A DNA stretch of 64,000 nt from Candidatus Zixiibacteriota bacterium. GTDB lineage: Bacteria > Zixibacteria > MSB-5A5 > GN15 > JAAZOE01. Under the pieces are notes generated by a model. It saw nothing but the letters and a program-made list of their open reading frames with translations, searched no databases and was not told the DNA's origin. This document shows, piece by piece, positions 3,901 through 63,536 of this stretch. A program made the translations under genes and the position numbers. Numbering within the stretch: position 1 is the first letter of the stretch; each line of letters starts with the position of its first letter. The stretch is from contig JAZGGI010000047.1 of the NCBI GenBank assembly GCA_036480375.1, forward strand, positions 1-64,000, read 5' to 3'.

Positions 3901-4659
3901 TTATTTAAGAAGTATCATTTGCCTGGAGGTGCTTTGATTATTTCCCGTCAGGCGATAGGTGTAAACGCCGCTGGGTAATTTATCACCGGAGAATATATAC
4001 TCATAAGTTCCCGCCGGTTTGTTACCCAGTTCAATCTTGTCAATCAATTGACCGGCAAGGTTAAATATTTCAAACGTATATTGCCCTGTCTTTTTGACCG
4101 TATAGGAAATGGTCGTTGATGGATTGAAGGGGTTGGGATAATTCTGTTCCAATACAAATTGAACCGGCAGCGCACCGGGTAGATCATCCGCTGATAATGG
4201 GATGAAAGTTATATATCCATCTTGTAGTGTTACGCTTAAAGGATCGCCAGCTTCATCGACCAGTTCAATATTCCCGGAAAATTTCACAAAAGCCGAATCT
4301 GCGGCATCGGCCGCCGCCTGAAGATTAAACTGGAAAAGCGGTTCCCCGGCCGGAAGCGTCAGGGGCGATGATAAATCTTCCCATATAACAAATATTTTCC
4401 CGTCGGTCACATTGGTTGTCCATGATTGAATATATGACGTCGCCATCGAATGAAACTCAACTTTGGATGTATCAAATTCAATAAAGATTTGAACTCCGGC
4501 TACATCCGTGAAATCTTCCGTCATAAGTTTCATCTGGACGATATCCGAAGGCGCCGCCGTCGCATTGGTGATTTCAAGCGTGACCGCGAACGCCGATGAT
4601 GGGACTACAAGCAGGAGAGCGAAGAGCAATCCCCAAAATTTACGACCCATCTTTTTCAT
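3901..4659 (-). CDS. Secreted cohesin-like protein with type IX sorting domain
   Basis: A 252-residue exported protein. A signal peptide covers residues 1-25 (ends SSAFA). One cohesin-like beta-sandwich follows at about 27-155 (VAGVQIFIEFDTSKVEF, then IWEDLSSPLTLPAG). A C-terminal sorting domain spans about 165-252, with QNYPNPFNPSTTISY, LPSGVYTYRL and a final MILLK. The sorting domain is the kind recognised by the type IX secretion system, so the protein should be carried across the outer membrane and attached to the surface or released. It is the second gene of an operon, 76 bases after the large scaffold-like gene, with its own GGAGG site. The cohesin fold suggests it binds dockerin proteins, several of which are encoded in this window. 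That pairing is inferred. Confidence 0.8.
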   Translation of the reverse strand: MKKMGRKFWGLLFALLLVVPSSAFAVTLEITNATAAPSDIVQMKLMTEDFTDVAGVQIFIEFDTSKVEFHSMATSYIQSWTTNVTDGKIFVIWEDLSSPLTLPAGEPLFQFNLQAAADAADSAFVKFSGNIELVDEAGDPLSVTLQDGYITFIPLSADDLPGALPVQFVLEQNYPNPFNPSTTISYTVKKTGQYTFEIFNLAGQLIDKIELGNKPAGTYEYIFSGDKLPSGVYTYRLTGNNQSTSRQMILLK

Positions 4660-4735
4660 AAAACCTCCACAGGACAGAGAAATTTATTTTCAAGAGGACC
4701 GGCCCCATACCGGCCCTCCTTACTTTACAAAAGTT

Positions 4736-7700
4736 TTATTTCAAAAGCATCATCTTTTTTGTCTGATTGAACGATCCTGACGAGAATTTATATAAATAAA
4801 TTCCCGAAGTAACGTTCATATCGTTGTCGTCGGTGCCGTCCCAGACAAATTCGATAATACCGGCTTCGTGATAGCCCTGATAAGTTCTAATCTTCTGTCC
4901 CATAATATTATAGATCTCAAGCGAATATTCCCCGGCCTCTCTCATGGAAGCCATTATCGTAGTTTCCGGGTTGAAAGGATTGGGGATATTCTGTTCGAGA
5001 CTATATTGGGCAGGGAGTGTAGTTCCGCCCTTGGTCAGATGACCGTTGATTATATTCAACCGATAGCTGTTTCCATCGGAATCAGCTAATTCAGCATCGG
5101 TTACAATAATTTCACTGGATTCATTAAACTCTCCGGTAATCCTGAATGAGATTTCCGCGATTGTATGCGAGCCGGTAAGATTCAAAGGCGCTTCAAAATC
5201 ATCCCAGATAAGATGGAAAGTATTATCGGCGCCGTTCAAGGTCGTGCCGGATAAGATATCAGAATCGGTTCCAACATATTGAACTTCATTGCCGTTAAAT
5301 GAAACGTGAAGTTCAATACCCGCCAGATTCTCGACGTCGGCGATATTTATTGGTACCGTGACAATGCCGTTGGGCTGCGTATAGGATTCGCCCAATTCGA
5401 TTGTAATCGGATCCATCGCGGCAGCAAATAAGGGCTTGGCCGCCAAAGGTGACCAGGTGGCGTTGACATCGCCCAATCTGACGCCGTAAAAATGCGGTAC
5501 AACGATATCTTCGTTGACAATTGAGATATTCTTGGACCGCGGCGCCAATTGCCAGTTATCAACCGTCAACGCATATTCGCCGTCGATGAAAGTCCAATTG
5601 CCACCCGGAAGAGTGCCCAGCATTGCAAGGAAACGGCGGATTGAAATAACATCGGAGACGCTGACCGTATTGGTGAGGTTTACATCCGCAGCGATCAATT
5701 GATAACCGAGATCAAACCTTTCGACATAGGCTATGTGACGGCGAATTTTAATTACGTCGGCTACGGATACGCCCGGAGCATCATCATCAAACCACGGAGT
5801 TATGGTATAACCGCCGATTTCAAGGTTGACGAAACTGTATTCACCGGCTCCGTCGGTTATATCCGAACCGCTGGCTTGTCCGCCAAAATCGACATTAACA
5901 CCTTCTATCGGGATATCATTTCCGTAATATACAACGGTTCCCGAAATATCGAAGATCGGATCAATTATCGTAACTTCACCGTCACAGAAACCGAGCGATA
6001 AATTCGGATTGCCAAATTCATCGACAATCTCATTTCCATCCAGCCAGACAATCGGAGACGTTTCGCCGACGCTGCCGATCGAGGTGAACCAGAAAGTCAT
6101 CAAAACATCGCCGTCCGGAACGGTAATTGGATTGCTTAAATTATCCCAAATGTAGTGAATATAACCGTTTCCATCGATATCGGATAAGAAACCGATGGTT
6201 GCTCCAATCATATAATTTGAAGTAACCGAATCGGCCGCCAGAACGGCGTTTAAATAAGTAAGATGCAATTCCACTCCGGCCACATCGGCAATCTGATAAG
6301 CATACACCGGTACGCCAACCGCCAGTCCCTGAGGCCCGTTAACCTCGGCGATATCAATAGCGCATTCATCACAGTTCGCGATATTGAATGAGAGAGTTAA
6401 TACTTGAGGTGAATTCGCGGCATCACCGGCGTCGACCGTGATAGTCGTCTGCTGTGGTCCAAAATTAAGATCCGCTGTATTGACCTCAAACGACACGGTT
6501 GCGGGTGCCGAGCCTGATGTAGCCGAAAGAGTAACTCCGGTACCGGTGGTCGCCGTCCAATCCATCGCGCCGGTGCCGACATTAGATATATCAAAATCAC
6601 CGGTTACGATGGTACCCATACACGTGTTGCCGAAATTTATTGAATTTGTCGATAACGCCAATTCAGGCATTCCAAAAACATCGAACAATACTGGAATCTC
6701 AGTCGGGCTAATCAGCGAGTTAGACGCGAAGGTAGCGGTCGCTATGTGGACTCCTTCAGGCAATCCGGCCGGATTGACGCTGAATTCAATGAAATCCTCC
6801 TCGGTTCCGGAGATCGGGGCCAGCGCCAGCCAGAGGGCATCGTCAGTAACAGACCACGTGAGATTGCCGTAACATGAATTTGTAATTTCGAAAGTCTGAG
6901 GCGCGGGAGGTGTTCCAAGTTCAGCGCTGAAATATACCGTGTCAACCGGGAATGAGAAACACGGCAATCCGGTTATATCGATACTGCCGGCGAAAAATTT
7001 AGTCGCGCGAGAAGACGCATCCGATTGAACAAATAGATATTCGAATGATGGCGGAATAAAAGCGGAGTCTATCGGAACGTTTTGAGTCGCCGCGGAAGGA
7101 TCAATCGAAAAATACATTTTTGCCAGCAATCCATTGCCAGTTTCCAAATATGGCTGAGTTACTCGCAATCCCTCGACATTGATAGTCTTGGCGTCATTAT
7201 CAATAGTCGCGAGATGTTCTTCCCAGGCTTCGACGCGGCTTCCCACAAATGATACGGAATCGCAAATCAGATCGGTTCCGTCATACCGGAGCGGAATATT
7301 GAAATGGCCGATTTGGACAAAATTTTGATAATTTAAATCAACCACGACCTGTTCGCCCGCTGTGGCCGATACATTGGATACCCACAAAGTATCAGCGGCC
7401 GGAGTGTCATCTATAACGGTCAAATTAATCGTGACATCCTGCGGCGCATTTTCTGTACCCGGATCAGCTGAGAAAGTAACCACATCGCTGTAATCACCGG
7501 GAGCCAGTCCGGTAAGATTGGCGAAGAAATTAATCGTCCGATTTCCGGTGCCACTGGTTGGGTTGGCAGATAGCCAGGATTCGTCTATACCGGTGATAGT
7601 GAAATTAAGCGTTGGCCCGCCGCAATTGCTGACGTTTATCGCACTATTTAAAATATCACCGGGAAATCCGCTGAAATTAATCTCGTTGGCTGAAAGCGCC

Positions 7701-8542
7701 AGACAGGGCGGGGGTGGGTCTAAAATCAACGTCACCGCCACTTCCTGTGGTGAATTGGTTGCGGCCGGGTCGCTCACAGTAATAGTACCGTTGTGAGTGC
7801 CCGCCAATAATCCGGTCAGGACGATATCGACCGTCACCGTTGCCGGGCCGGCACCCGCTGTCGGATTTAAAGTAATCCAGCTATCGGCCGTGGCAGTCCA
7901 ATTTAATGTCTCATCGCCGGTATTAGAAATATTAAATGATTGCGATGCGGGAGGAGCGCCGTCCTGAACTGCGGTAAAATCAAGCGAAACCGGATCCAAT
8001 GCAATCGTCGGGCCCGATACCGGGTCTCCAATAGTTATCGTTCCCGTTTTATACTGCGGCACAAAAGTTGATCCGCCGGTTAGTGTCAGGATAAAAGGTG
8101 AAGCCTCGATATACGAAGTAGAATCCAACGTGATCACTTGATCTGCGGCCCCGGGAGCCGGGGTAAACCACGCAGTAAATATATTACCTCTTCCGGCCTG
8201 CAAATAAGCTTCCGAAAAGATGATCATACCAACCTGGAACTTCTGCTCGGCGTTATTGATTTCTATAGGTTTGATAAGCACATAGTCAATTCGTGAGCCG
8301 CCAAAAGTAACTGAGTCAGCGGTTATGTCGGGAGAATCCCATAAAAATGGTAAACCAAAACCGCCCAGTTCTTCATCATTATAAAGATGAATTGGAACGG
8401 AAAAAGGATCGGTGCTTCCGGATGGAATACTAACCGATTCGACCCAGACCGTATCCGCGATACCCGGATCGGGAACCGCATATACGGACGCGCCGAGGGT
8501 AAAGATAGCAACTATGACGAATAAGACAATTTTATTCCCCAT
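4736..8542 (-). CDS. Large scaffold-like surface protein: several cohesin-like modules, BACON repeats, dockerin, sorting domain
   Basis: A 1268-residue exported protein. Approximate order: signal peptide 1-22; cohesin-like module 30-170; two BACON/Ig-like repeats 180-375 (SLDFTAV..SFNISNTG, SWITLNPTAG); cohesin-like 385-525; two further BACON-like repeats 530-730; cohesin-like 735-865 (VAGVELHLTYL, IWDNLSNPITVPDG); carboxypeptidase-regulatory-like fold 870-920; dockerin-like pair 925-985 (VSVADVIKIRRHI and SVSDVISIRRFL); cohesin-like 1045-1175 (LAGIELHVSFNG, IWDDFEAPLNL); type IX sorting domain 1180-1268 (QNIPNPFNPETTI, final MMLLK). Three of the cohesin-like modules, including the neighbour at 3901, share a W-[DE]-[DN]-[LF]-x-x-P motif, which suggests duplication. 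The dockerin is of a different subtype (ADVIKIRR) from the GDAVFIIN dockerins elsewhere in the window. A GGAGGTG site precedes the ATG. A scaffold role is inferred. No carbohydrate-active domain is visible. Confidence 0.78.
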   Translation of the reverse strand: MGNKIVLFVIVAIFTLGASVYAVPDPGIADTVWVESVSIPSGSTDPFSVPIHLYNDEELGGFGLPFLWDSPDITADSVTFGGSRIDYVLIKPIEINNAEQKFQVGMIIFSEAYLQAGRGNIFTAWFTPAPGAADQVITLDSTSYIEASPFILTLTGGSTFVPQYKTGTITIGDPVSGPTIALDPVSLDFTAVQDGAPPASQSFNISNTGDETLNWTATADSWITLNPTAGAGPATVTVDIVLTGLLAGTHNGTITVSDPAATNSPQEVAVTLILDPPPPCLALSANEINFSGFPGDILNSAINVSNCGGPTLNFTITGIDESWLSANPTSGTGNRTINFFANLTGLAPGDYSDVVTFSADPGTENAPQDVTINLTVIDDTPAADTLWVSNVSATAGEQVVVDLNYQNFVQIGHFNIPLRYDGTDLICDSVSFVGSRVEAWEEHLATIDNDAKTINVEGLRVTQPYLETGNGLLAKMYFSIDPSAATQNVPIDSAFIPPSFEYLFVQSDASSRATKFFAGSIDITGLPCFSFPVDTVYFSAELGTPPAPQTFEITNSCYGNLTWSVTDDALWLALAPISGTEEDFIEFSVNPAGLPEGVHIATATFASNSLISPTEIPVLFDVFGMPELALSTNSINFGNTCMGTIVTGDFDISNVGTGAMDWTATTGTGVTLSATSGSAPATVSFEVNTADLNFGPQQTTITVDAGDAANSPQVLTLSFNIANCDECAIDIAEVNGPQGLAVGVPVYAYQIADVAGVELHLTYLNAVLAADSVTSNYMIGATIGFLSDIDGNGYIHYIWDNLSNPITVPDGDVLMTFWFTSIGSVGETSPIVWLDGNEIVDEFGNPNLSLGFCDGEVTIIDPIFDISGTVVYYGNDIPIEGVNVDFGGQASGSDITDGAGEYSFVNLEIGGYTITPWFDDDAPGVSVADVIKIRRHIAYVERFDLGYQLIAADVNLTNTVSVSDVISIRRFLAMLGTLPGGNWTFIDGEYALTVDNWQLAPRSKNISIVNEDIVVPHFYGVRLGDVNATWSPLAAKPLFAAAMDPITIELGESYTQPNGIVTVPINIADVENLAGIELHVSFNGNEVQYVGTDSDILSGTTLNGADNTFHLIWDDFEAPLNLTGSHTIAEISFRITGEFNESSEIIVTDAELADSDGNSYRLNIINGHLTKGGTTLPAQYSLEQNIPNPFNPETTIMASMREAGEYSLEIYNIMGQKIRTYQGYHEAGIIEFVWDGTDDNDMNVTSGIYLYKFSSGSFNQTKKMMLLK

Positions 8543-40601: not shown

Positions 40602-43361
40602 CTACCAGGCTATATCACAATCGTCACACGTACCCGGGCCACCTTTGAAAACGACATTAATTATATACACGGCGTCACCCACATTGGTATTTCCATCGCA
40701 GTTGGCGTCGCCCTTTCCAATTGGATTCGGAGGCGGTCCTCCCTTAAATATATGACTGATTAGAAATACGGCATCGCCGATATTTACAATTCCATCATTA
40801 TTGGCATCACCACAATGATTACCCGGATTGGGGTATATATTGATAACATACAGGCAGTCGTAATCGGGTTCGCCAACTGGTTTAATCCGCCAATAATACG
40901 TAGTTGTGTCCGTCACATCCAACGGTTCATCGGTGGTGAATTCGTTTCCGTCAATTGTCAAATCATAGAGGATGTTATTGAAATCATAATCACCGGCTAA
41001 TTGGAAATCAAACTGCCCATCTCCCAGCCACATAAAAGTAGGTGGATTTATATGGGTAATTTTCCCGGGACGAGGTACGGCTGGAAAGTGATCGCCTGCG
41101 TAAAACGTAAATTGATAACCTTCCGGTCGCATCGGCATATCTTTGGCCAGACGATAGAGACGGCCGTTAATCGTAAATTCCAATGTGAAACTCTCACCTT
41201 CCGTCACGTTTGGTTTGGGAAGGGCGTCAATTGTATATGCTTCATTTTCAACAACGCCCAGGACGAGATAATCATCGATAATATCATTGGGATCGACATT
41301 GCGCCGGTAATATTCTCCCGATGGCATTACATTTTTTATCCGATTGAAAACTTTACCATCCGAAGAATTAAGCTCGATTGAGGCGTTATCATATGCTGTC
41401 AATGTAAGCGATTGCGGCAAATAACCGGCTGGATTTGTTTGATTTTCCAAATAATATAGCGAATTGCCTTGCATAACAGAAACCGACGCTGCCATTAAAT
41501 CAAGATCACCATCCAGATCGGCGTCAAAACAATCAATATATTGCGGTACATGGTTGGCGATTTCATATCTCATTTCATTTGAAAATGAACCATCTCCTTC
41601 CCCAAATAAAATTCCGATGTATTTCTGGGAACCGTTGACAAAGGCGATATCGAGCTGATTATCGTTATTGAAATCACCGACACAATTACCAAAAACCTGG
41701 CCTCTGATGTCATGAATCACATGCTGACTGAAGGTCCCGTCGCCGTTGCCAAGATATATGACTATCTCACTTCGCTCCCCGCCAACAGAAGGTGTGGAGA
41801 TACACAGATCGTAAATATTATCGTCATTAAAATCGCTGCCATTGTTGGTTATTTCAACATCCAGAGTGGCGTACACTTGTGAATGAAATTCTTCCTCGGT
41901 AAATCCGCCGACACCGTCGCCCAGATATATTTTTATTCCACTTTTGGTTCCAATGGCCAGATCATCGACTCCATCCTCGTTAAAATCGGCACAGTTTACG
42001 GTAACGGCTGAATCGAAAGTGGGAATTATAGAGATGTATGAAAAATCGCCCTGTTCGTTTCCGGCATAAATCCGAACACCGTCATGCCAGGTTGAGGCGG
42101 CATCTATATAATTATCACCCGTAAATTCTCCGCAAATAATATTGCGGGTCACATGGCCGTCATTTGAAAAACCTGATAAAGAAAAAGAATTAGCGCCATC
42201 TCCTTCAGCGGTGAGAACCCGATAAGGCCCGTTTTCAAATCCCATCAATAGGACGTCCAAATTGCCGTCATCATTATAATATCCGGTTTGAGAACCAAAT
42301 TTCGGTTCCATATCTTCGTGAGCAAATACTCTCTGCCAGCCTTCTGACAAATTCAAATCATATAGCGCCATCGTTGGAGTTAAATTACTACCTGTTCCGC
42401 TGATAAATAATTCAGGATTGTCATCATCATCGAAATTGCCGTGAGCCAGACCATTGGCATTACAAACACCCGTTATTTCATCAATATCCATATCAACCAA
42501 ATAATATAAACTTTCGACAACCTGAATCACAACGCTGTTGACTTCACATAATTCTTCTGTGTCACAGATTCTGAATACGGCTGTCCAGACCCCAATGTCA
42601 TTGGCTGTGACATCCCATTCAAAGAGTGCCGGGTTCGCCTCGCTGAGAGTTGGCGTGTTTTCCGGTAATCTTGTGTCATCGTCGTAACCTGCCAGCTCAA
42701 TCAGTTCAAGTGTAATCTGTAAATCTTCGGGTGAATACCCCTCAATTTCAAAACCGACGGTTTGACCGGCAATTGAGGAAATATAACTATCGGGAACCGT
42801 TAATTCAGGAGGTAATGTTCCCTCGATGATTTCAATCGTGGTTGAAGTAAATTGAGGTGTATAGCTGTTAATGTAATCCCATCGTTGTAATGCAAATGGA
42901 GCTCCCGGTGGAAAATAGGAGGAATCAATAGTAATATGGCCGGTACTGATGCCCGTGAAATAAAGAAGAAGAATCGGGTCATTTCCCGGAGGTAATGGAT
43001 TTCCAAACCATGTGCCATTGACAACATGAAGACTATCGTATCCAATACAAGTTTCTTTTCGCGACCTTATCAACCGAAAATCCATAACAGATGGGTCATT
43101 TTGGCGATTGATATAAACGACCGAATCATATTTGGCACAGCCACCGTCATCCGAAAAAATAATAAGACCAGATGTATTTCCCCTGACTAATTCATCGTTT
43201 ACGACTGTAAACGTGAGTGGAATTGATCTTCCGACAATCAGCGGTCCTCCCTCGATCTTAACGGTATCAGGAAGTCCCGGATCCTGAGCCAAACAATTGG
43301 CCCCGGCCACGACAGTTAGAATACATATGACGATATTAATAAATCGTATCCATGATTTCAT
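40602..43361 (-). CDS. Secreted VCBS/FG-GAP propeller protein with C-terminal dockerin
   Basis: A 919-residue exported protein with a signal peptide (1-25, ends LAQ). An N-terminal cohesin/Ig-like region spans about 30-175 (IPLTFTVVNDELV) and an Ig-like domain about 185-280. FG-GAP/VCBS repeats lie at about 290-640, with calcium-binding loops such as DFNEDGVDDLAIG, DFNDDNIYDLCIS, DFNNDNQLDIAF and DLDGDLDLMAAS. A further beta domain follows. A dockerin pair forms the C-terminus (850-912: GDANNDGIVNIGDAVFLI and GDANCDGNTNVGDAVYII). No type IX sorting domain is present. GGGAGGG precedes the ATG. It is probably surface-bound through the dockerin, with unknown function. Confidence 0.8.
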   Translation of the reverse strand: MKSWIRFINIVICILTVVAGANCLAQDPGLPDTVKIEGGPLIVGRSIPLTFTVVNDELVRGNTSGLIIFSDDGGCAKYDSVVYINRQNDPSVMDFRLIRSRKETCIGYDSLHVVNGTWFGNPLPPGNDPILLLYFTGISTGHITIDSSYFPPGAPFALQRWDYINSYTPQFTSTTIEIIEGTLPPELTVPDSYISSIAGQTVGFEIEGYSPEDLQITLELIELAGYDDDTRLPENTPTLSEANPALFEWDVTANDIGVWTAVFRICDTEELCEVNSVVIQVVESLYYLVDMDIDEITGVCNANGLAHGNFDDDDNPELFISGTGSNLTPTMALYDLNLSEGWQRVFAHEDMEPKFGSQTGYYNDDGNLDVLLMGFENGPYRVLTAEGDGANSFSLSGFSNDGHVTRNIICGEFTGDNYIDAASTWHDGVRIYAGNEQGDFSYISIIPTFDSAVTVNCADFNEDGVDDLAIGTKSGIKIYLGDGVGGFTEEEFHSQVYATLDVEITNNGSDFNDDNIYDLCISTPSVGGERSEIVIYLGNGDGTFSQHVIHDIRGQVFGNCVGDFNNDNQLDIAFVNGSQKYIGILFGEGDGSFSNEMRYEIANHVPQYIDCFDADLDGDLDLMAASVSVMQGNSLYYLENQTNPAGYLPQSLTLTAYDNASIELNSSDGKVFNRIKNVMPSGEYYRRNVDPNDIIDDYLVLGVVENEAYTIDALPKPNVTEGESFTLEFTINGRLYRLAKDMPMRPEGYQFTFYAGDHFPAVPRPGKITHINPPTFMWLGDGQFDFQLAGDYDFNNILYDLTIDGNEFTTDEPLDVTDTTTYYWRIKPVGEPDYDCLYVINIYPNPGNHCGDANNDGIVNIGDAVFLISHIFKGGPPPNPIGKGDANCDGNTNVGDAVYIINVVFKGGPGTCDDCDIAW

Positions 43362-48340: not shown

Positions 48341-51214
48341 TCAGCAGCCCTCACATGGCGCCGGGCCGCCTTTGAAGACATGATTTATAAGATATACGGC
48401 GTCTCCGACGTTTGTCGCGTCATCGCAATTGGCATCACCGGCTTCAATTGGATCGGGGGCCGGCCCACCTTTGAATACGTGGTTGATTATGAATACAGCG
48501 TCACCGACATTGACGTCGCCGTCGCCGTTAGCATCACCGCATTTATAATCGCATAAATCCCCAATCCCATCACCGTCAGTATCCTCCTGATTGGGATTAG
48601 GCGTTGCTGCGCAATTATCACACCCGGCAAGAATCCCATCGGTATCGGCATCACCGAAAGAATAGACATAAACCTTACCGGCGTCACTACCGCTCTCATT
48701 ATCAAATCCTTCAGAGCCAACAATTAAATCTCTGACTCCATCGCCATTAATATCTGATGAGCCTGAAATGAAGCTTCCAAACCACGAAAAGTGCACTTCC
48801 GAGGATAACAGATACAACAAACTACCATCTATGCCTGAATGGATATAAACCCTATGGGCCTGGATTTCGCTATAAGCATAGTCATCATATCCGTCATTAT
48901 TAAGATCACCCATGCCGCAAACTCTCTCCCCAAGAAGCCCCTGCCAAATTCCTTCATGTGTCCGAAATGTAGAAAGATCATTGGCTGAAATAATATATAC
49001 TTTTCCGCCATTATTTAATTTTCCCTCAAAACTACCGGCGCCAATAATAATATCATCAAGCGCATCTCCGTCCACATTGCCGACTCCTGCAACAGAACAA
49101 CCAAACCGATCGCCTGGATTTTCCCCAGTAAAAAAATGTAGTAATGATCCATCGCCTGAGTAAATATAAACCTTCCCGGAGTGGTATCCGTTGTCGCTAT
49201 TGTGTTGAGCGCCGACTACAAAATCAGGCATTCCGTCATTGTTAAAATCCCCGGCAGATGACAGAGATACTCCAAAATTTTGACCAGTCGCTTCACCGTA
49301 AACACTAAAAAGAAAATCCCCGCTGCTCCCCGAATAAGCCGATACCATACCAAGACCGCTGCCGTTTATTTGCAGTGAACCGATCAAAATATCGGATACC
49401 CCATCCGAATCAATGTCACCAATACTGGAGACTGAGTATCCCATTAGTTGATCGATAGAACTTCCCAAGAAAGTATGAATGACAGAACCGTCAGCCCCGG
49501 AATATGCATAAGCCTTGCCAGCGTTTGCGGCACCTTGGTCATTTCTATAAGCGCCAACGAGGAAATCGTCAATCCCGTCATCATCAATATCTCTAATTCC
49601 GCACAGGCTGTAACCAAATCGGTCTACCGCATATTCACCTTCAAGGGCATACAGAGTATCAAAGTCTTTACCTGAAAAGATATATACTTTTCCGATTTCA
49701 TTGTCGGGCCCTATATCTTTGTAGGGTGATCCGATACCAATATCATCAAAACCATCGCCATTCACATCTCCAACGCCACTGACACATTTTCCTAAATAAT
49801 CACCGGTAAATTCACCTTCAAAAGAAACTACTTCTTCAAAACACTGGCAATCATCACCAATTCCATCTCCATCACTATCCTGCTGGCCCGGATTATAAAC
49901 AAGCGGGCAATTATCCAATCCCGATATCAAGTCATCGTTATCATAATCTCTCGAGAATTCAAACATGGCAGCTTCTATGTAACCAATCCCACCGTTCCAT
50001 ATATTTGTCAGAATAATAAATCCTGTGCGCTCTTCAGGATCAAAATACATTCTTGTATCAGCCCCCCAAGACTGCCCTCCATGTCCCCAGGAATCATTAT
50101 TCAGGAAAAGAAATTCGTACCAGCCCAAACCTTGTAAACGGGTGCTCCCTGCATCTGTATCAGGATAATGAATCGTTCTCATCATTTCTACAGTAGTACT
50201 GTCAAGAATTCTGTTACCTTCAATTTGACCGTATTGCATAAAAGCAATCATATGACGGGCCAATTGTTGCGCACTGGAGCGAACCTGCATGCATGGGTAA
50301 GGACCGATTCCATAATGCCCAAAGGGTTCATTAGCGCTTCCTGTCCATTTATAGGGAATAGCAACATTATCCTGGTTTAGATTGGAAATAAACCAGGATG
50401 TTTCATCCATTCCAATCGGTTGAAAAATAGAATCCTGGCAATATTGCCCCAGCGACATCCCCGATACATTTTCTATAACGCACCCGGCCAAAGCGAAGCC
50501 AAAATTGCTGTACCAAAAATATTCACCGGGGCGACGGCTTATGTAATTTAAGACTGAATATCGAGATCCTCCCGAAACCAAAACAGATTCCATATAATCA
50601 CAATTTGATATTGGAAAATCACTGGTCGTATTGGTGTCAAGCTCGGAAGTCCATATGTCGTTCCTATTGTCAAGGCCTGAGGTATGCGACAAGAGTGTCC
50701 GCATTGTAATCGCATCATCCGGGTACCAGGGATTAATAACATCAAAGGGCAGATAATCATTGACATTTGCATCAAGGTCCAAAAGCCCATCCTGCCATAA
50801 ATGGGCGGCGGCGTTGGCCACAAATGTTTTGGAGATTGACGCCAAATAAAATAGAGTTGTATCTGAAGCTGGTATGCCTTGTGCCAAATCAGCATAACCG
50901 TATGATTTGCTGAATACAACCTGATCCTCAAGTATCGCAAGGATTACAACTCCGGGCATATGATACTCCGCCATAGCTGCCTCGACAATTGAGTCAAGCA
51001 CAGTCTCGGTGAATTTGGATAGTACTTTAAATGCCTTTATACTACCCGTATCGGGTAGAGGACTATCTAATAATCGCTGCTCAAATTCCGAGTTAAAACG
51101 AATATAATCCTGCACTGGTGTAAATGGGTCGGGCTCCAATTGCGCCAAACCATTTGCCGTTAGGATAGATGCAATAACTGTACAAAAAACCAGAATCTTA
51201 GCCAATTTTTTCAT
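48341..51214 (-). CDS. Fusion of serine beta-lactamase domain, TSP3 loops, integrin-type propeller and dockerin
   Basis: A 957-residue exported protein with a signal peptide (1-24, ends LAQ). A class C beta-lactamase/penicillin-binding-like domain spans about 65-415, with SISK (S126, K129), YSN (in FWYSNFG) and HGG motifs, so it should be an active serine hydrolase. A thrombospondin type 3 calcium region follows (about 425-455, DSDGDGIGDDCQC). About seven FG-GAP/integrin-alpha-like repeats come next (about 460-865, GVGDVNGDGFDDIGIG and others), then a second TSP3 loop and a C-terminal dockerin pair (about 893-955). It has no type IX sorting domain. It may cleave D-Ala peptides or esters at the surface. 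GGAG precedes the ATG. Confidence 0.86.
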   Translation of the reverse strand: MKKLAKILVFCTVIASILTANGLAQLEPDPFTPVQDYIRFNSEFEQRLLDSPLPDTGSIKAFKVLSKFTETVLDSIVEAAMAEYHMPGVVILAILEDQVVFSKSYGYADLAQGIPASDTTLFYLASISKTFVANAAAHLWQDGLLDLDANVNDYLPFDVINPWYPDDAITMRTLLSHTSGLDNRNDIWTSELDTNTTSDFPISNCDYMESVLVSGGSRYSVLNYISRRPGEYFWYSNFGFALAGCVIENVSGMSLGQYCQDSIFQPIGMDETSWFISNLNQDNVAIPYKWTGSANEPFGHYGIGPYPCMQVRSSAQQLARHMIAFMQYGQIEGNRILDSTTVEMMRTIHYPDTDAGSTRLQGLGWYEFLFLNNDSWGHGGQSWGADTRMYFDPEERTGFIILTNIWNGGIGYIEAAMFEFSRDYDNDDLISGLDNCPLVYNPGQQDSDGDGIGDDCQCFEEVVSFEGEFTGDYLGKCVSGVGDVNGDGFDDIGIGSPYKDIGPDNEIGKVYIFSGKDFDTLYALEGEYAVDRFGYSLCGIRDIDDDGIDDFLVGAYRNDQGAANAGKAYAYSGADGSVIHTFLGSSIDQLMGYSVSSIGDIDSDGVSDILIGSLQINGSGLGMVSAYSGSSGDFLFSVYGEATGQNFGVSLSSAGDFNNDGMPDFVVGAQHNSDNGYHSGKVYIYSGDGSLLHFFTGENPGDRFGCSVAGVGNVDGDALDDIIIGAGSFEGKLNNGGKVYIISANDLSTFRTHEGIWQGLLGERVCGMGDLNNDGYDDYAYSEIQAHRVYIHSGIDGSLLYLLSSEVHFSWFGSFISGSSDINGDGVRDLIVGSEGFDNESGSDAGKVYVYSFGDADTDGILAGCDNCAATPNPNQEDTDGDGIGDLCDYKCGDANGDGDVNVGDAVFIINHVFKGGPAPDPIEAGDANCDDATNVGDAVYLINHVFKGGPAPCEGC

Positions 51215-51251: not shown

Positions 51252-53573
51252 TTACCCACACCCCGCACATGGCACCGGACCGCCTTTGAAGATGTGATTG
51301 ATCATATAAACCGCATCTCCGACATTGCAGTCTTCATCACAGTTGACGTTGCAGCTTTCAATCGGATCGGGGGCCGGCCCACCCTTGAAAACGTGATTGA
51401 TAATAAAGACTGCATCGCCGACATTGACGTCACCGCCGCCATTAGCATCACCGCATTTATAATCGCAAACATCTCCAATATTGTTTCCATTGAGATCGAT
51501 TTGATCCGGATTATACGTATCGGGACAATTATCCAATGCATCGGTTATGCAATCGCCATCACTATCAGGGAAAACTCCCCGGGCCAGTAGGGTTGCGTCG
51601 GCGAGAGCGGGATCAAGGTCGTCAGAACCGGTACCGGAAAATATTATCGCCGCCTGGAAAAACTCAGTTTCACCCGGTTCCAGGATTACTTCACCGAATG
51701 ATATTAGTGTTGATACATCAGTTGAATTCAGCGATCCCGTGCTGCTGGCGGAAACCAATTCACGATACGCATCGTTATCGGTCAAGCCGCTATTGGGATA
51801 AATTAAATCCGGGTTGGAGATTATGCGTAAATTTGGGCCAGAACCGCAACTTTGCAATACGGTTAGGGCCACCGATTGAGAGGCGCCATTGGTACCATCT
51901 GTCGCGATGACCATGTCACCGCTGATAAAGGCATAGTTATCGCCCGAATTGTCAATATCAAAATCACAGAATATTCCGGCGACTATATTCAGAGCGGTAT
52001 CGCACGGATTAGAAATAGTATAGTCGATTTCCAAAGCCGAACAACTGTCAAGGTCCAGGTTATTATAACCGTAATGATAGCTCACCGAACCGTGCAGCCT
52101 GTTATCATTAGTCACATATCTAATCGTCTGAGTATTACGACCGGCCGCGTCAATATCGCTCACATAAGAATCAATAACAGAAAAATCTTCCGCGCCATAC
52201 GCATCCATGTATGTTGTCGTATCGGTCCCATCAATGACTCCAATTAGAAGAGAACCGTCGTAGAGAATATTGCCAAATCCGGCCGGTACAAAACCGGTGC
52301 CGGACAGATCAGATATTCCCGGCGTGTTGGGTACCGTAAATGTCAGACATGTGGAACCGGTCGTGAGATGCTCGTTGGTCGGAACCGCGTACACGACCGC
52401 AGGCGTTATCGGAATTGACGCGATTGTCACTTCGGAGTGAGTTGTATTGAAGATGACAGTATCTTCTCTGGGCCCAAGATCGCATTCACCGGTTAAGGCA
52501 GAAGCATTAAAACTGACGATATAAGACACTGTATCATCCTGATTCAGGGTAACTGGTACGGTACCGGATACATTGATAATTCCGATTGAGGTGGAAAAGG
52601 ATATAACATCAAATGGTGTCTCCGAACTGTTAATAATCTTGATTACCGTATCGGAAGTTTGTCCGGCAAGGGTGGGCAGCGTTTCAATCACGCCCGGCAG
52701 CACAATAAAACCGTCGATACTAAAGGCTAACTCGGATCGTAGAGTCAGAAGCGTTGTTCTGAATTTTTCGATTTGCATGTCGCTATGGAAATCACGACAG
52801 GATTTCCGGGAATATGACATTATATTTTCGACCTGAGGATTATACGTTTCAGAACCGCATGACGCGGGAGATGTATCAGTTCCGGTATAAGTACAGGTGG
52901 CATCTACGAGACCCGAAAGAGTCGGATCAGCGGGGGTGTCGCAAATCAAATCGCCAGCTTCGATACAATTACTTCCATCAGGACATTCATCACCAAAGGC
53001 GGTTTCATGAGTATGATAAAGATTAAAATAATGGCCGATTTCATGAACCAGAGTGGAATTTATAATAAGCTCTCCGGCGCAATTATTGCTCATGATTATA
53101 CCCTGCGTCCCGGAAAACGAAAACGACGAAAGACCGCAATAAGGAAAATCCGATTCATCGGGTAAATAGTAAATATTTACCGCTTCGGGAACGACATTGA
53201 CGCTTCGGAGTTCATCGTAGCGGTGTCCATCAAAGAAAAATACGTCATCATCGATATAATCCAGCGAATACTGATAAATGCTGACATTCAAGGGCGCGAA
53301 AAGTACATTTGCGCTATCAGTCGAAGCGGTCAAATCGGTTAAAGAAAAGCCGCCGGTACCGTCTGAACGACGCACAATATGATAGGCAATCGGGATTTCT
53401 ATATGAGTGGTCGTGCTTAGAGTCTTGGAAGCAAATTGCATCTCGCGCTCTATTCTCAAGGCCTGCTCAACCTGTTCGGGATTGATGACTGTCCCGCAAT
53501 CGCTGTCTTGCGCCTGAATATTAAAAGCGGCAATCAAAATAAAAAATAATCCAAAAAAGCTAAAAATTCTCAT
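51252..53573 (-). CDS. Secreted M43 (pappalysin-like) metalloprotease with dockerin
   Basis: A 773-residue exported protein with a signal peptide (1-22, ends IQAQ). The metzincin zinc motif HEIGHYFNLYH gives ligands H177, H181 and H187 with catalytic E178. A Met-turn follows (ENIMSYS near 255), with the cysteine-rich insert CPDGSNCIEAGDLICDTPADP between, as in family M43. The middle part contains choice-of-anchor-like Ig domains. A TSP3 loop (DSDGDCITDALDNCPDTYNP) and a C-terminal dockerin pair close the chain. I chose the ATG at 53573 because AGAAGG lies 5 bases upstream. An earlier ATG at 53606 adds 11 residues. The gene lies 37 bases upstream of the beta-lactamase fusion, probably in one operon. 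Confidence 0.86.
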   Translation of the reverse strand: MRIFSFFGLFFILIAAFNIQAQDSDCGTVINPEQVEQALRIEREMQFASKTLSTTTHIEIPIAYHIVRRSDGTGGFSLTDLTASTDSANVLFAPLNVSIYQYSLDYIDDDVFFFDGHRYDELRSVNVVPEAVNIYYLPDESDFPYCGLSSFSFSGTQGIIMSNNCAGELIINSTLVHEIGHYFNLYHTHETAFGDECPDGSNCIEAGDLICDTPADPTLSGLVDATCTYTGTDTSPASCGSETYNPQVENIMSYSRKSCRDFHSDMQIEKFRTTLLTLRSELAFSIDGFIVLPGVIETLPTLAGQTSDTVIKIINSSETPFDVISFSTSIGIINVSGTVPVTLNQDDTVSYIVSFNASALTGECDLGPREDTVIFNTTHSEVTIASIPITPAVVYAVPTNEHLTTGSTCLTFTVPNTPGISDLSGTGFVPAGFGNILYDGSLLIGVIDGTDTTTYMDAYGAEDFSVIDSYVSDIDAAGRNTQTIRYVTNDNRLHGSVSYHYGYNNLDLDSCSALEIDYTISNPCDTALNIVAGIFCDFDIDNSGDNYAFISGDMVIATDGTNGASQSVALTVLQSCGSGPNLRIISNPDLIYPNSGLTDNDAYRELVSASSTGSLNSTDVSTLISFGEVILEPGETEFFQAAIIFSGTGSDDLDPALADATLLARGVFPDSDGDCITDALDNCPDTYNPDQIDLNGNNIGDVCDYKCGDANGGGDVNVGDAVFIINHVFKGGPAPDPIESCNVNCDEDCNVGDAVYMINHIFKGGPVPCAGCG

Positions 53574-53913
53574 AATGGCCTTCTGCTGTTTGTAATTTTT
53601 GTACATTAGTACGTAAAAAACGTGTAATCATGCAGCCCCATAAGTCAGTATTGGCTAAATATAACGAATTTTGGGAATTATAAAACTCCTTTTTAAGTCC
53701 TTCATACCGGGAAAATATTAAAAAATATCTGGAACCGATAAAATATTGGGAAATATAATTCTTATTTAACGGGATAGGGTCGTTGAAGGAGCGGAGGTAG
53801 CCTTAAGTCTGTCGGCCTTGACAGATTGGCTTTAGTTGTTTATAATCCCAATCCTGACCGATACAAATTTAATTAGATAATTAACTGTTTGGATTCGTGT
53901 GTGAGGTAAATTG
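53574..53913. other. Divergent intergenic region
   Basis: 340 bases between the divergent protease and ABC genes. It is AT-rich, with no gene, tRNA or strong hairpin that I could support. It presumably holds promoters for both sides. Confidence 0.5.
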
Positions 53914-54681
53914 ATGATAAACGGCAATGATAAACCAATGATTGAGGCGCGAAATCTATCCAAATACTTCGGAGAATTCGTGGCCATCAAGGATATTTCC
54001 TTCTCGATTCCAAAAGGACAAATTGTCGCCTTTTTGGGACCCAACGGAGCGGGAAAAACTACCACGATGAGGTTATTGACCGGGTTTATGCGTCCCAGTC
54101 AAGGTTCCGCTTTCATCTGCGGGCATGAAGTATCCGGAAATCGACTGGGAGCTTCTCGCTTTTTGGGTTACCTGCCGGAAAACGGCCCTCTCTATGAAAA
54201 TATGACTCCGCTGGAACTATTACGATTTTTTGGAGAAGTTCGAGAGATGGAGGAGAAATATCTGAGTCAACGAATTGATACCCTGGTTGATCGCTGTGCA
54301 CTGCAAACCGTGCTCGAAAAACCGATCGGAAAATTATCCCGGGGTTATCGACAGCGGGTCGGGCTGGCCCAGGTTCTTTTGCACGACCCGGATGTCCTGA
54401 TTATGGACGAGCCAACAGCGGGCCTTGACCCCAATCAAATTCGCGATTTCAGGGATAATATTTCCGAGCTGGCCAATACTAAAACGATTTTACTTTCGAC
54501 CCATATTCTTCAGGAAGTTGAAGCCGTTGCCGCCCGGGTACTGCTGGTGCATAACGGCCGACTCGTCTTCGATGGTTCTCCGGGAGATTTGAGAAAACAA
54601 AACTCCATGGAAGAATCGTTTTACAAAATGACAAATTATGGCCGTTCCTCAGAATTAAATACCGAGGGGGGTATGCTATGA
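53914..54681 (+). CDS. ABC transporter ATPase (GldA-like)
   Basis: A 255-residue ABC ATPase. Walker A is GPNGAGKTTT, the Q-loop region is GYLPENGPLYENMT, the signature reads LSRGYRQRVGLAQ, Walker B is VLIMDEPTAGLDP and the H-loop is LLSTHILQEVE. All catalytic residues are present. The sequence resembles GldA and other ABC-2 exporter ATPases. The start is the ATG at 53914 with GAGG 7 bases upstream, rather than the TTG three bases earlier. The stop overlaps the permease gene by 4 bases (ATGA). Confidence 0.9.
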   Translation: MINGNDKPMIEARNLSKYFGEFVAIKDISFSIPKGQIVAFLGPNGAGKTTTMRLLTGFMRPSQGSAFICGHEVSGNRLGASRFLGYLPENGPLYENMTPLELLRFFGEVREMEEKYLSQRIDTLVDRCALQTVLEKPIGKLSRGYRQRVGLAQVLLHDPDVLIMDEPTAGLDPNQIRDFRDNISELANTKTILLSTHILQEVEAVAARVLLVHNGRLVFDGSPGDLRKQNSMEESFYKMTNYGRSSELNTEGGML

Positions 54682-58789: not shown

Positions 58790-59413
58790 TTACGGAAGAT
58801 CAGGGGAAGTGTATATATAGAAATAGTAATTATAGGGCAGATTAACCCCCGTAACGCTCCGTACGTCCTTCGAAATTCCGATGCACATCATAATAGCAAA
58901 TTCAAAGCGTGCGAGTTTGACAATCACTTTGTTGCCATCGCATTCAAATGTCCCCCCAAATCCGGGCCCTATGTCAATCGTCTCGGAGGAAATACTCTCG
59001 CAATCAACTTCGTCTGAAAATGTAATTATTATTGAATCTGTTATAAGCAATTCACGATCATCGGGATACAGGGAAATTACGCCAAACTCATATTCGCCGG
59101 TATCTCCAGGAGGTGGACCATTTCGGAAAATGTGGTTGATAATATACAATACATCGCCGACATTAACATGGCCGTCCAAATTGGCATCTCCCGCATAAAA
59201 AGGAGACGGCGCCTGGCCATCACGAAAAATAAAATTAATAAGATATATGGGATCGCCAACATTTATACGGCCATCAGAATTGGCATCGCCAATCGTATAA
59301 TTTGCCTCAGCAATTTGAGGCATAAATACTAACGCCCATACCAAAACAGCAATAAATCCTAAAAATTCTGGCATGCCTGCCCGTAAACAGCGCAGGAATA
59401 AAGAATGAAACAT
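58790..59413 (-). CDS. Small secreted protein with N-terminal dockerin and Ig-like domain
   Basis: A 207-residue protein with an N-terminal hydrophobic signal (about 15-37, ends AEA). A dockerin pair follows immediately at 41-103 (GDANSDGRINVGDPIYLI and GDANLDGHVNVGDVLYII, each followed by FRDG/FRNG). The remainder (about 110-207) is a bacterial Ig-like (Big_5/SbsA-like) domain (VISLYPDDRELLITDSIIITFSD). In the other proteins of this window the dockerin is C-terminal or internal. The N-terminal placement is unusual and leaves the Ig domain at the end. GGGAGG lies 5 bases before the ATG at 59413. It has no sorting domain. Confidence 0.75.
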   Translation of the reverse strand: MFHSLFLRCLRAGMPEFLGFIAVLVWALVFMPQIAEANYTIGDANSDGRINVGDPIYLINFIFRDGQAPSPFYAGDANLDGHVNVGDVLYIINHIFRNGPPPGDTGEYEFGVISLYPDDRELLITDSIIITFSDEVDCESISSETIDIGPGFGGTFECDGNKVIVKLARFEFAIMMCIGISKDVRSVTGVNLPYNYYFYIYTSPDLP

Positions 59414-61105: not shown

Positions 61106-61418
61106 AATCGCTCCCTCACTAAAAATTCCCTCAACGAATCCAAGGAACGATTATTTAAGCGAAATGTCAAATGACTATTTTTGGATGCCAAAGTGTTTGA
61201 CTTTTAACGTAAAATGTATATCTTCATATAAGATGACGGGTGGAATTAGCGGGTCGGCATTTATAAAATACAAATCTTATATTTGATTTTGCAGTAACAA
61301 CAGTAATTCATCCCGGGGGCGGGGGGATTATCCGTTGAATAAATTATAGCATTGTAACTCATTTGCGAATTTGGGATATTTTATCGCTATGGGTTTATTT
61401 AAATTTCGGGGAGGTTAT
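61106..61418. other. Divergent intergenic region
   Basis: 313 bases between the divergent ferredoxin and dockerin genes. It contains TTGACT and TATATC-like segments near 61198-61218 and a G-rich run (CCCGGGGGCGGGGGG, about 61313-61327). I could not assign a complete promoter with confidence. Confidence 0.45.
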
Positions 61419-63536
61419 ATGAAAGACAAGGCTAATGTATTTATTATTACGATGACAGTTATATGTTGCGGTATTTTGATGCTGTTATTGGTGCCTGATG
61501 TAAGCACCGAAAATGTTCCGACGGCAAATACTATCATAGGGAAAATCCCTCGATTAATCGATAACGAGAAGAGATTAATGGGAGAGGATTTGTTACCGGG
61601 GGAAAAATCTTTATCACCGGATAATATGTCTTATTGTGAGTATCAGGCATATTATTGCAATATGTATTATTACTGGCCTATTCCCAATGCGTACGGCGAC
61701 GATTTTTTTAATATGCGGTTTACTGCGCCTGATGTTTGCACTCTTGTCTCGATTCATATGAAGTTTTATGAATACGGCAGTACTAATGATTCCGTAAACG
61801 GAATTAATGTGCTAATTTGGGATAACGATGAATACGGATTTCCGGGAGACACAATTGATATTATTCATGTTCCGGGATCTGATATTATTTGGTTTCCAAA
61901 TTGGACAACGATTACTCCATCCGAGCCAATAATTATTTCCGGAGATTTCCACGTCGGATATACAGTCGTTGATCAGGTAAATGACACGATATCAATAACG
62001 TCAGACGACGGTTCCTGCGGAACTGGGCGCTCATATGAATATTGGAATAATGTATGGGGCACAATGTTGGGTGATTGGGCAAACGATGTAAACTTTTGTA
62101 TTGTTATCAATTATTGTTGCCCCGATACGAACGAGGTGCCTTATGTTACCAATCACCCAGAGTTATTACAACGTAGTTTTTGTTCCAATATGTATTATGA
62201 TTATTTTGGTGAAGACCCGGAGGGAGACGAGATATATTTTGAACTAATCTCCGGACCGGGAACGATGATTGATTCTACCGGTGAATGGATATGGGAACCC
62301 GGACCTGAAGATATCGGGACTCACTATATAACCTACCAGGTATGTGATCCGACCGGATGCTCGGAAGAACTAATTACCGAAGTTATCATAGATAATTACC
62401 CCCCCGATATGATAAGTAATTGCGATATAAGTATTGAGGCCGAGGCCGGCGATCATATACTGCATATATTTACGGCTATCGGTCCGGAACGTTGTGATAA
62501 TGTCATCTATACAGTAGTCGGCCCCGGAGACATTGACTCTGTTACGGGAGTTTACGATTGGTACACAGCGCCGTCAGATTTGGGTATGTATGAAGTTATG
62601 GTAACGGTTCAGGATATTTTTGGGCAAAGCACTGACTGCGGAATATTAATAAATCTGACTGAAGCCGTAGTTTGCGGAGATGCCAATGGAGATGGCACTA
62701 CAAATGTCGGCGATGCCGTTTTTATTATAAATCATGTCTTCAAAGGTGGCCCGCCACCCGAGCCGTTATATGCCGGTGATGCCAATGATGATGGTTTCGT
62801 TAATGTCGGTGATGCCGTGTATGTCATTAATTATGTTTTTAAAGGCGGCACTGCGCCATGTACAGATGAAACTCCGGTTTGTTGTAATGCCCCAGCCTGT
62901 TCACCCAACCCGGCCGTACCTGTTACTTACACGAAAATACCCAGCAAAGTCGCAAATTGCGGCGGTGATTTCGGACTATGGGAAGGACATCCGGTAACAG
63001 CTGAATATGACGCTTGCTGTCTTGACGGAGATAATTGGGAGATGCGAGTTAAAAAATGTCTATCAAATTACTCTATTTCGGTCTGTACTCAGGGGAAGAC
63101 CGATATAACCGGTGTTGGTGCTGTTCCGAATCTGGCGACATGCAAATTAGTCGTGGCCGATTTAGCATTTACGGGAGCCCCTGCTCCTACCGGTCGCCCT
63201 ACAAGAGCCACCTATACTTCGACTAGTGCAACCCTGGCTCATGAACAAGTGCATCAGGCTGAATGGAAAGCGGCTTTTGACGCACAATGGATAGCGGATG
63301 AACCCAAAATTGAGACCCTGACCACCGCATGCATTATACCGGAGGTTGATACCCCAGCGGAAGCCGTTGCCAAAATGAAAGCCGCCGCTGACGCTCTGGT
63401 AAAGGCCGCTGATGCCGCCGCATGGGCCAATACGCCTAATCATGGCCCTCCGGATACCAGCGGAGCTTATCCCGCACATAAGGTAAATCATAATGCTTTG
63501 ATAGCGGCTCTTAAGGCGGCATTTCCGGGATGTTAA
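61419..63536 (+). CDS. Secreted multidomain protein: Ig-like region, dockerin and C-terminal HExxH domain
   Basis: A 705-residue exported protein with a signal peptide or anchor (about 8-27). Its N-terminal half is a beta domain rich in aromatic residues (YYCNMYYYWPIPNAYG). Two cadherin/Ig-like domains follow (about 245-410, FGEDPEGDEIYFELISGPG). An internal dockerin pair is at about 417-480 (GDANGDGTTNVGDAVFII and GDANDDGFVNVGDAVYVI). The last 220 residues form a cysteine-containing domain with the zincin motif HEQVH at 608-612, then an alanine-rich helical tail. I do not recognise this domain. The motif suggests a zinc peptidase. The start at 61419 has GGGGAGG upstream, better than the ATGs at 61371 and 61389. 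There is no type IX sorting domain. Confidence 0.8.
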   Translation: MKDKANVFIITMTVICCGILMLLLVPDVSTENVPTANTIIGKIPRLIDNEKRLMGEDLLPGEKSLSPDNMSYCEYQAYYCNMYYYWPIPNAYGDDFFNMRFTAPDVCTLVSIHMKFYEYGSTNDSVNGINVLIWDNDEYGFPGDTIDIIHVPGSDIIWFPNWTTITPSEPIIISGDFHVGYTVVDQVNDTISITSDDGSCGTGRSYEYWNNVWGTMLGDWANDVNFCIVINYCCPDTNEVPYVTNHPELLQRSFCSNMYYDYFGEDPEGDEIYFELISGPGTMIDSTGEWIWEPGPEDIGTHYITYQVCDPTGCSEELITEVIIDNYPPDMISNCDISIEAEAGDHILHIFTAIGPERCDNVIYTVVGPGDIDSVTGVYDWYTAPSDLGMYEVMVTVQDIFGQSTDCGILINLTEAVVCGDANGDGTTNVGDAVFIINHVFKGGPPPEPLYAGDANDDGFVNVGDAVYVINYVFKGGTAPCTDETPVCCNAPACSPNPAVPVTYTKIPSKVANCGGDFGLWEGHPVTAEYDACCLDGDNWEMRVKKCLSNYSISVCTQGKTDITGVGAVPNLATCKLVVADLAFTGAPAPTGRPTRATYTSTSATLAHEQVHQAEWKAAFDAQWIADEPKIETLTTACIIPEVDTPAEAVAKMKAAADALVKAADAAAWANTPNHGPPDTSGAYPAHKVNHNALIAALKAAFPGC

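Follow-up and report, generated by a model that had tools for sequence, protein, structure and literature searches.

In Candidatus Stygibacter (Cloacimonadota), a 3755-aa scaffoldin with several cohesins, carbohydrate-binding modules (CBM) and a C-terminal domain (CTD) serving as anchor has been proposed, together with peptidases and glycoside hydrolases (GH) that bear dockerins (PMC8542988). Here we analysed a comparable locus of a Candidatus Zixiibacteriota bacterium. The DNA, called the window below, is a stretch of 64,000 nucleotides (positions 1 to 64,000 of contig JAZGGI010000047.1, our contig C47) from a 3.59 Mb metagenome-assembled genome (MAG; GCA_036480375.1) that is 97% complete. 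Near its start lie two adjacent genes, encoding the multi-cohesin protein P1 and the single-cohesin protein P2, each with a sorting domain of the type IX secretion system (T9SS). We moderately favour the view that P1 and P2 form a T9SS-anchored, non-cellulosomal surface scaffold on which a peptidase-rich set of dockerin-tagged client proteins docks.

Both the Stygibacter system and the present one were inferred from MAGs of a Gram-negative candidate phylum. They share a T9SS-type CTD on a multi-cohesin, scaffoldin-like protein and C-terminal dockerins on peptidases with signal peptides. The Stygibacter scaffoldin carries CBM2/CBM3 and its clients include GH18 and GH57 (PMC8542988), whereas P1 has BACON repeats and no CBM match, P2 is a separate partner with one cohesin, about 90 dockerin proteins are encoded with no GH among the families listed, and the cohesin–dockerin kit is phylum-wide. 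In the 'planctosome' of Nemodlikiaceae (Planctomycetes), cohesins and dockerins were also proposed to assemble peptidases, not cellulases, at the outer membrane, but that system has a lamin-tail anchor, an adaptor protein and few components, and no T9SS tail was described (PMC6461901). Clostridial scaffoldins (CipA, ScaB and others) share with P1 the cohesin fold and the multi-cohesin chain, and calcium-binding dockerins of two repeats are found at the C-terminus of the enzymes in both cases. Unlike in the clostridia, no CBM3 over cut-off and no cellulase clients were found here, the anchor is a T9SS tail instead of an S-layer homology (SLH) domain or sortase signal, the cohesins are of two subtypes and the dockerins are rich in cysteine. 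Proteins of anaerobic methanotrophic (ANME) archaea are likewise non-cellulosomal and combine one dockerin with several cohesins, but they belong to an archaeal S-layer context, have ABC-transporter binding proteins as dockerin partners and involve no T9SS (PMC9012536). The Limousia mucinolysome is, in the part of the source that was available, a cellulosome-like assembly for another substrate; it comprises mucin-degrading complexes of anaerobic gut bacteria, and T9SS anchoring is not mentioned in that part (PMC12997984).

Compared with these cases, the distinguishing features are the lack of CBM3 and GH matches, the numerous and peptidase-rich clients, the paired P1–P2 layout, the dockerin cysteines and the spread over a phylum. 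A preliminary description of this DNA had considered a surface-displayed, non-cellulosomal scaffold unusual in such a Gram-negative bacterium. This expectation was not supported: of 110 genomes surveyed in the phylum, about 100 have the kit, and T9SS-anchored scaffoldin-like proteins with dockerin-bearing peptidases had already been proposed in Cloacimonadota (PMC8542988).

Cohesin modules and sorting domains of P1 and P2

The open reading frames (ORFs) of P1 (1268 aa) and P2 (252 aa) are both intact and co-directional, with P2 downstream of P1 after a gap of 76 bp (Table 1). Both start with a hydrophobic N-terminus, read directly from the sequence as a signal peptide. Pfam found Cohesin in two stretches of P1 (56.4 bits, cut-off 24.1) and, above the same cut-off, in P2. 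It also found BACON_2 in three stretches of P1 (67.2 bits), FlgD_ig (33.8 bits) and no catalytic domain. The T9SS tail model TIGR04183 (NCBIfam, cut-off 23) matched both proteins. The BACON repeats and sorting domains claimed beforehand are thus present.

The modules fall into subtype A (P1 modules 3 and 4 and the P2 module) and the more divergent subtype B (P1 modules 1 and 2). Modules 1 and 2 were reached by a profile seeded with the subtype-A modules (E about 1e-36 and 1e-41 after iteration). A direct profile–profile comparison of the two subtypes was weak (probability 84%), with few sequences, and was replaced by iterated profiles and searches of the PDB. An iterated search could drift; two tests were therefore added, profiles against the PDB and AlphaFold models with Foldseek. 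Solved cellulosomal cohesins came first for the profile of modules 1 and 2 with their relatives (best 7.7e-8) and for that of subtype A with its relatives (2.8e-8). Except for one weak chance match (tektin), the PDB chains listed for both profiles came from scaffoldins of cellulosomes or were other cohesin entries; a few of these chains bear the name of an enzyme or other protein of the deposited complex. AlphaFold2 models were built from shallow alignments, with a mean predicted local distance difference test score (pLDDT) of 80.7 for P2 and 82.5 for P1 module 1. Foldseek against the PDB placed cohesins on top for both, 6kgf_A matching the P2 module with a template modelling score (TMt) of 0.83 and a root-mean-square deviation of 1.5 Å over the module, and many cohesins matching module 1 with TM about 0.7. 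As modelled, the P2 module and P1 module 1 are β-sandwiches of the cohesin fold. On account of the Pfam scores, the iterated profile, the PDB profile matches and the model of module 1, P1 is assigned four cohesin-family modules and P2 one (PF00963), the numbers that the preliminary description had given. Its comparison with a scaffoldin was also supported as regards architecture, P1 carrying these four modules on a single non-catalytic chain.

The motif W-[DE]-[DN]-[LF]-x-x-P-[LI], previously reported for three modules, was found at P1 W799, P1 W1113 and P2 W93. Modules 3 and 4, the P2 module, their orthologues in genome G056 and most of those in G055 have two motifs in common, A-G-x-[EQ] and, on a different strand, [IV]-W-[DE]-[DNS]. 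In an alignment with CipA cohesin 2, uncertain by about one residue and with the residue numbering checked for consistency, the two motifs map to the strands of N37/D39 and of E86/D87, the W motif to that of E86/D87. We take these four residues to mark the strands that meet the dockerin in the CipA complex. The W motif would then sit where a cohesin meets a dockerin, in only three of the five modules. Because modules 1 and 2 are without the motif of the other three, the five modules need not all bind the same partner.

The claim of one dockerin in P1 was upheld in part. The corresponding dockerins of the P1 orthologues in G055 and G056, from two sister genera, match a dockerin profile, whereas the P1 copy has no match in Pfam or with the profile of the client dockerins of its own genome. 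The alignment indicates a degenerate first calcium loop, so that the two loops of a type I dockerin (PF00404) are not both present. By orthology the P1 dockerin is therefore judged to be real, yet half-degenerate. It was rejected as a dockerin of the same type as those of the clients, the client profile giving no match.

Dockerins and candidate clients

The genome was sampled as stretches around dockerin, cohesin and tail hits. It has about 95 dockerins above or near the cut-off, which are candidate cognate partners of the scaffold, and 78 of them lie at most 30 residues from the C-terminus. The client dockerins are strikingly uniform, being close to GDANGDGDVNVGDAVYIINHVFKGGPAPDPIEAGDANCDGNCNVGDAVYLINHVFKGGPAPC plus a short tail, and those at the C-terminus have a conserved FKGGPxPC end. 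The alignment and position counts show the duplicated calcium loop with helix of type I dockerins (PF00404), and the consensus matches dockerins in the PDB. Most have [V/I]-G as the dyad at positions 10-11; both repeats carry G11 in 63 of 74, and both conserve K or R at position 22. Such symmetry would be expected of a dockerin with a dual binding mode and one shared type of partner. Cysteines are present in loop 2 and in the tail, and none in loop 1. The loop-2 cysteine co-occurs with the first tail cysteine (for example at 48377-48538 and 51291-51452 of the window), and a cysteine just before the first loop co-occurs with the second tail cysteine (33/38 versus 10/38, p = 1.4e-7). On the basis of this covariation, we predict a two-disulfide clasp that closes the N- and C-termini of the dockerin.

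Pfam found M28 peptidases in 11 of 77 ORFs with a C-terminal dockerin. The other peptidases of this set are M6, M14, M1, M43, C1, C10, S8, M20 and trypsin-like, and the non-peptidase domains include FG-GAP, LVIVD and other propellers, TSP_3 and immunoglobulin (Ig)-like domains. A crude script found N-termini resembling signal peptides in 77 of the 95 dockerin entries. No GH was among the families listed for the 77 ORFs (the top 25 of 29 and of 36), and no CBM3 scored over the cut-off anywhere in the genome. Neither the CBM3 scaffoldin of a cellulosome nor, among the families listed, its dockerin-bearing cellulases or other GH were thus found; the preliminary description had noted no cellulase domains nearby.

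Cohesins gave 10 Pfam matches in this genome and T9SS tails 47. With profiles made in this study, cohesin-like modules were found in 25 ORFs of the fetched stretches, 15 with a T9SS tail and 12 with a dockerin. All except a short fragment (24 of 25) bear a tail, a dockerin or both, a count biased upward by the choice of stretches around such hits. The genome also encodes the T9SS translocon SprA, the sortase PorU (633.8 bits, cut-off 420) and the shuttle PorV. With their sorting domains and signal peptides and this machinery, P1 and P2 are predicted T9SS cargo, in agreement with the surface display suggested earlier.

The five other dockerins named beforehand in the window are all real according to Pfam (Table 1); one of their ORFs, cited there as 61419, begins at 61371. 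The FG-GAP dockerin protein at 40602-43361 also has an N-terminal cohesin-like module. In at least six ORFs of this genome (L054, L055, L056, L057, L059 and L106), and in L028 of genome G054, a cohesin-like module abuts a dockerin without a linker; these resemble the X-module–dockerin dyads of cellulosomes. Elsewhere in the genome, four genes for dockerin proteins, each encoding 947-964 aa, stand in tandem at C28:228409-237189 (L072); one type of client may have expanded locally here. At L083 (C39) and L084 (C40), contigs end within dockerin genes that share the same dockerin sequence. Assembly seems to be interrupted inside such repeats, so that MAGs may undercount dockerins and cohesins. An 894-aa ORF at 54678-57362 of the window matches the GldF and GldG models below their cut-offs and looks like a fused component of a gliding-type ABC transporter.

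Table 1. Features of the P1–P2 locus and dockerins of the window (positions in the window).
Feature	Position	Strand	Evidence
P1, multi-cohesin scaffold-like protein with signal peptide (MGNKIVLFVIVAIFTLGASVYA)	4736..8542	-	ORF; Pfam/NCBIfam; full-length orthologue in G055
Cohesin-family module 1, subtype B (P1 aa 27-177)	8012..8464	-	Iterated profile; PDB profile match 7.7e-8; AlphaFold2 and Foldseek
BACON-like repeats 1-2 (approximate limits)	7415..8011	-	Pfam BACON_2, best stretch aa 299-369
Cohesin-family module 2, subtype B (P1 aa 381-532)	6947..7402	-	Iterated profile; profile against PDB
BACON / Ig-like repeats 3-4 (approximate limits)	6371..6946	-	Pfam BACON_2 and HYDIN-like Ig
Cohesin module 3, subtype A, motif WDNLSNPI, W799 (P1 aa 726-863)	5954..6367	-	Profiles; PDB cohesins 2.8e-8
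CarboxypepD_reg-like domain (P1 aa 866-915)	5798..5947	-	Pfam 23.4 bits, below cut-off 32.3
Half-degenerate internal dockerin of P1 (about aa 917-976)	5615..5794	-	Orthologues in G055/G056 match dockerin profile; alignment
Cohesin module 4, subtype A, motif WDDFEAPL, W1113 (P1 aa 1043-1172)	5027..5416	-	Pfam Cohesin, best stretch aa 1047-1159; profiles
P1 T9SS type A sorting domain (QNIPNPFNPETTI ... KKMMLLK; aa 1185-1268)	4739..4990	-	TIGR04183 36.2 bits
P2, single-cohesin protein with signal peptide	3901..4659	-	ORF; Pfam/NCBIfam; pair kept in G055 and G056
P2 cohesin module, motif WEDLSSPL, W93	4192..4587	-	Pfam Cohesin 32.3 bits; AlphaFold2 and Foldseek
P2 T9SS type A sorting domain	3904..4146	-	TIGR04183 42.3 bits; Por_Secre_tail 36.9 bits
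C-terminal dockerin of candidate client 40602-43361 (FG-GAP protein)	40656..40811	-	Pfam
C-terminal dockerin of candidate client 48341-51214 (beta-lactamase-family serine hydrolase with FG-GAP)	48377..48538	-	Pfam
C-terminal dockerin of candidate client 51252-53606 (pappalysin-family M43 metallopeptidase)	51291..51452	-	Pfam
Internal dockerin of 58790-59413	59129..59290	-	Pfam
Internal dockerin of 61371-63536	62676..62837	+	Pfam

Relatives across the phylum

The survey covered 110 genomes of the phylum that are at least 80% complete. Pfam found a cohesin in 100 of them, a dockerin in 106 and a T9SS tail in all 110. Our cohesin profile A1 found cohesin modules in all 11 dockerin-bearing genomes tested, six of which are cohesin-negative by Pfam. 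In five dockerin-poor genomes (G005 and G097-G100) profile A1 found no cohesin, and these have 130-297 candidate T9SS tails, against a median of 46 elsewhere.

The P1–P2 pair is conserved within the family and recurs in analogous form in the phylum. In G055, a full-length P1 orthologue (44% identity over 1279 columns) keeps the order of the modules and has a P2 orthologue (42% identity) downstream; in G056 the pair is present at a contig end. Analogous pairs of a large and a small gene were found in the more distant families f11, f12 and f15 (G081-G083, G086 and G093-G095). Two neighbourhoods also recur across families. In one, a dockerin gene of roughly 400 aa lies beside a cohesin-tail gene of 800-900 aa, and in the other a large cohesin-tail gene (1300-1800 aa) is followed by dockerin genes.

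A putative surface scaffold and its alternatives

From known T9SS biology, P1 and P2 would be exported by T9SS and fixed to the outer surface with their cohesins facing out. The subtype-A cohesins (P1 modules 3 and 4 and P2) would capture the near-uniform, calcium-loop C-terminal dockerins of about 78 proteins, most of them with signal-peptide-like N-termini, many of them peptidases of the families named above (M28 to S8) and others β-propeller proteins. The result would be a complex that displays enzymes on the cell and is not cellulosomal, with the degradation of proteins or peptides as its probable role. Proteins with both a cohesin and a dockerin could act as adaptors, and the subtype-B modules may bind other partners or serve as spacers. 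The clients might pass the outer membrane by periplasmic docking followed by co-export, or through another secretion system.

Several observations weigh against this scheme. In the alignment, the acidic residues and the Trp that mark subtype A are lacking in P1 modules 1 and 2. The clients with C-terminal dockerins are without T9SS tails, although in this scheme they would have to cross the outer membrane. Dockerin genes are no closer to cohesin-tail genes than to tail-only genes (12/95 versus 4/41, p = 0.78). Compared with background ORFs (15/470), they adjoin cohesin-tail genes more often (p = 5e-4), at loci chosen around cohesins; a neighbourhood enrichment was rejected, as the cohesin-tail genes did not beat the tail-only controls. 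G100, one of the five dockerin-poor genomes, has two Pfam cohesin matches and one weak dockerin. The joint absence of cohesins and dockerins comes from two families and not from independent events, and is suggestive. A general trade-off between dockerins and T9SS tails was rejected, the correlation over the 110 genomes being weakly positive (rho +0.22).

The cohesin-like modules could instead be structural or adhesive β-sandwich spacers that no longer bind dockerins, in which case P1 and P2 would be adhesins and the dockerins would serve something else. This would account for modules 1 and 2 without the subtype-A motif, for cohesin-like modules inside dockerin proteins, where they abut the dockerin as a structural module might, and for the many BACON and Ig repeats of P1, typical of surface proteins. 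We consider it unlikely, since the subtype-A modules keep the positions on the CipA dockerin-meeting strands in three modules and most orthologues, and cohesins and dockerins co-occur across the phylum.

Another explanation is that the C-terminal dockerin is a secretion or anchoring tag read by the export machinery and not by cohesins, so that dockerins and T9SS tails are parallel sorting signals. The 78 dockerins at the extreme C-terminus with their conserved end would fit such a tag. So would the rarity of dockerin and tail together, seen in only 4 of 101 dockerin ORFs and with the dockerin internal in those 4, and the unusually many tails of dockerin-poor genomes. On the other hand, the paired calcium loops are intact and have near-perfect two-fold symmetry at the recognition positions, as expected of a cohesin ligand, and by profile A1 the absence of dockerins goes with the absence of cohesin modules. 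An export tag therefore seems quite improbable to us. A degenerate relic of a polysaccharide-degrading cellulosome, suggested by the same cohesin and dockerin families and the decaying internal dockerin of P1, is hardly credible given a genome without CBM3 over cut-off, client families listed without GH, intact P1, P2 and clients, and domains conserved throughout the phylum.

Beyond the surface scaffold of P1 and P2, a two-step relay might operate across the phylum; we propose it tentatively. Much of the secreted peptidase repertoire would be displayed in this way: T9SS would export and anchor a small number of cohesin scaffolds (P1, P2 and their paralogues), and as many as about 80 other proteins per genome would use the disulfide-clasped C-terminal dockerin as an alternative surface tag. 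Lineages lacking dockerins and cohesins would have expanded direct T9SS tails.

The kit looks like a widespread, protein-handling version of the known cohesin–dockerin machine. Docking, if true, would explain the many dockerins per genome without a cellulose-binding scaffold, and poses the question by which route the roughly 80 dockerin proteins that carry no T9SS tail pass the outer membrane. In protein engineering, a dockerin this uniform and apparently closed by a disulfide clasp could find use as a robust tag. If the clients dock on scaffolds like P1 and P2, cohesin–dockerin assembly would be a general means of surface display in a large group of uncultured Gram-negative bacteria, for peptidases and not for cellulases.

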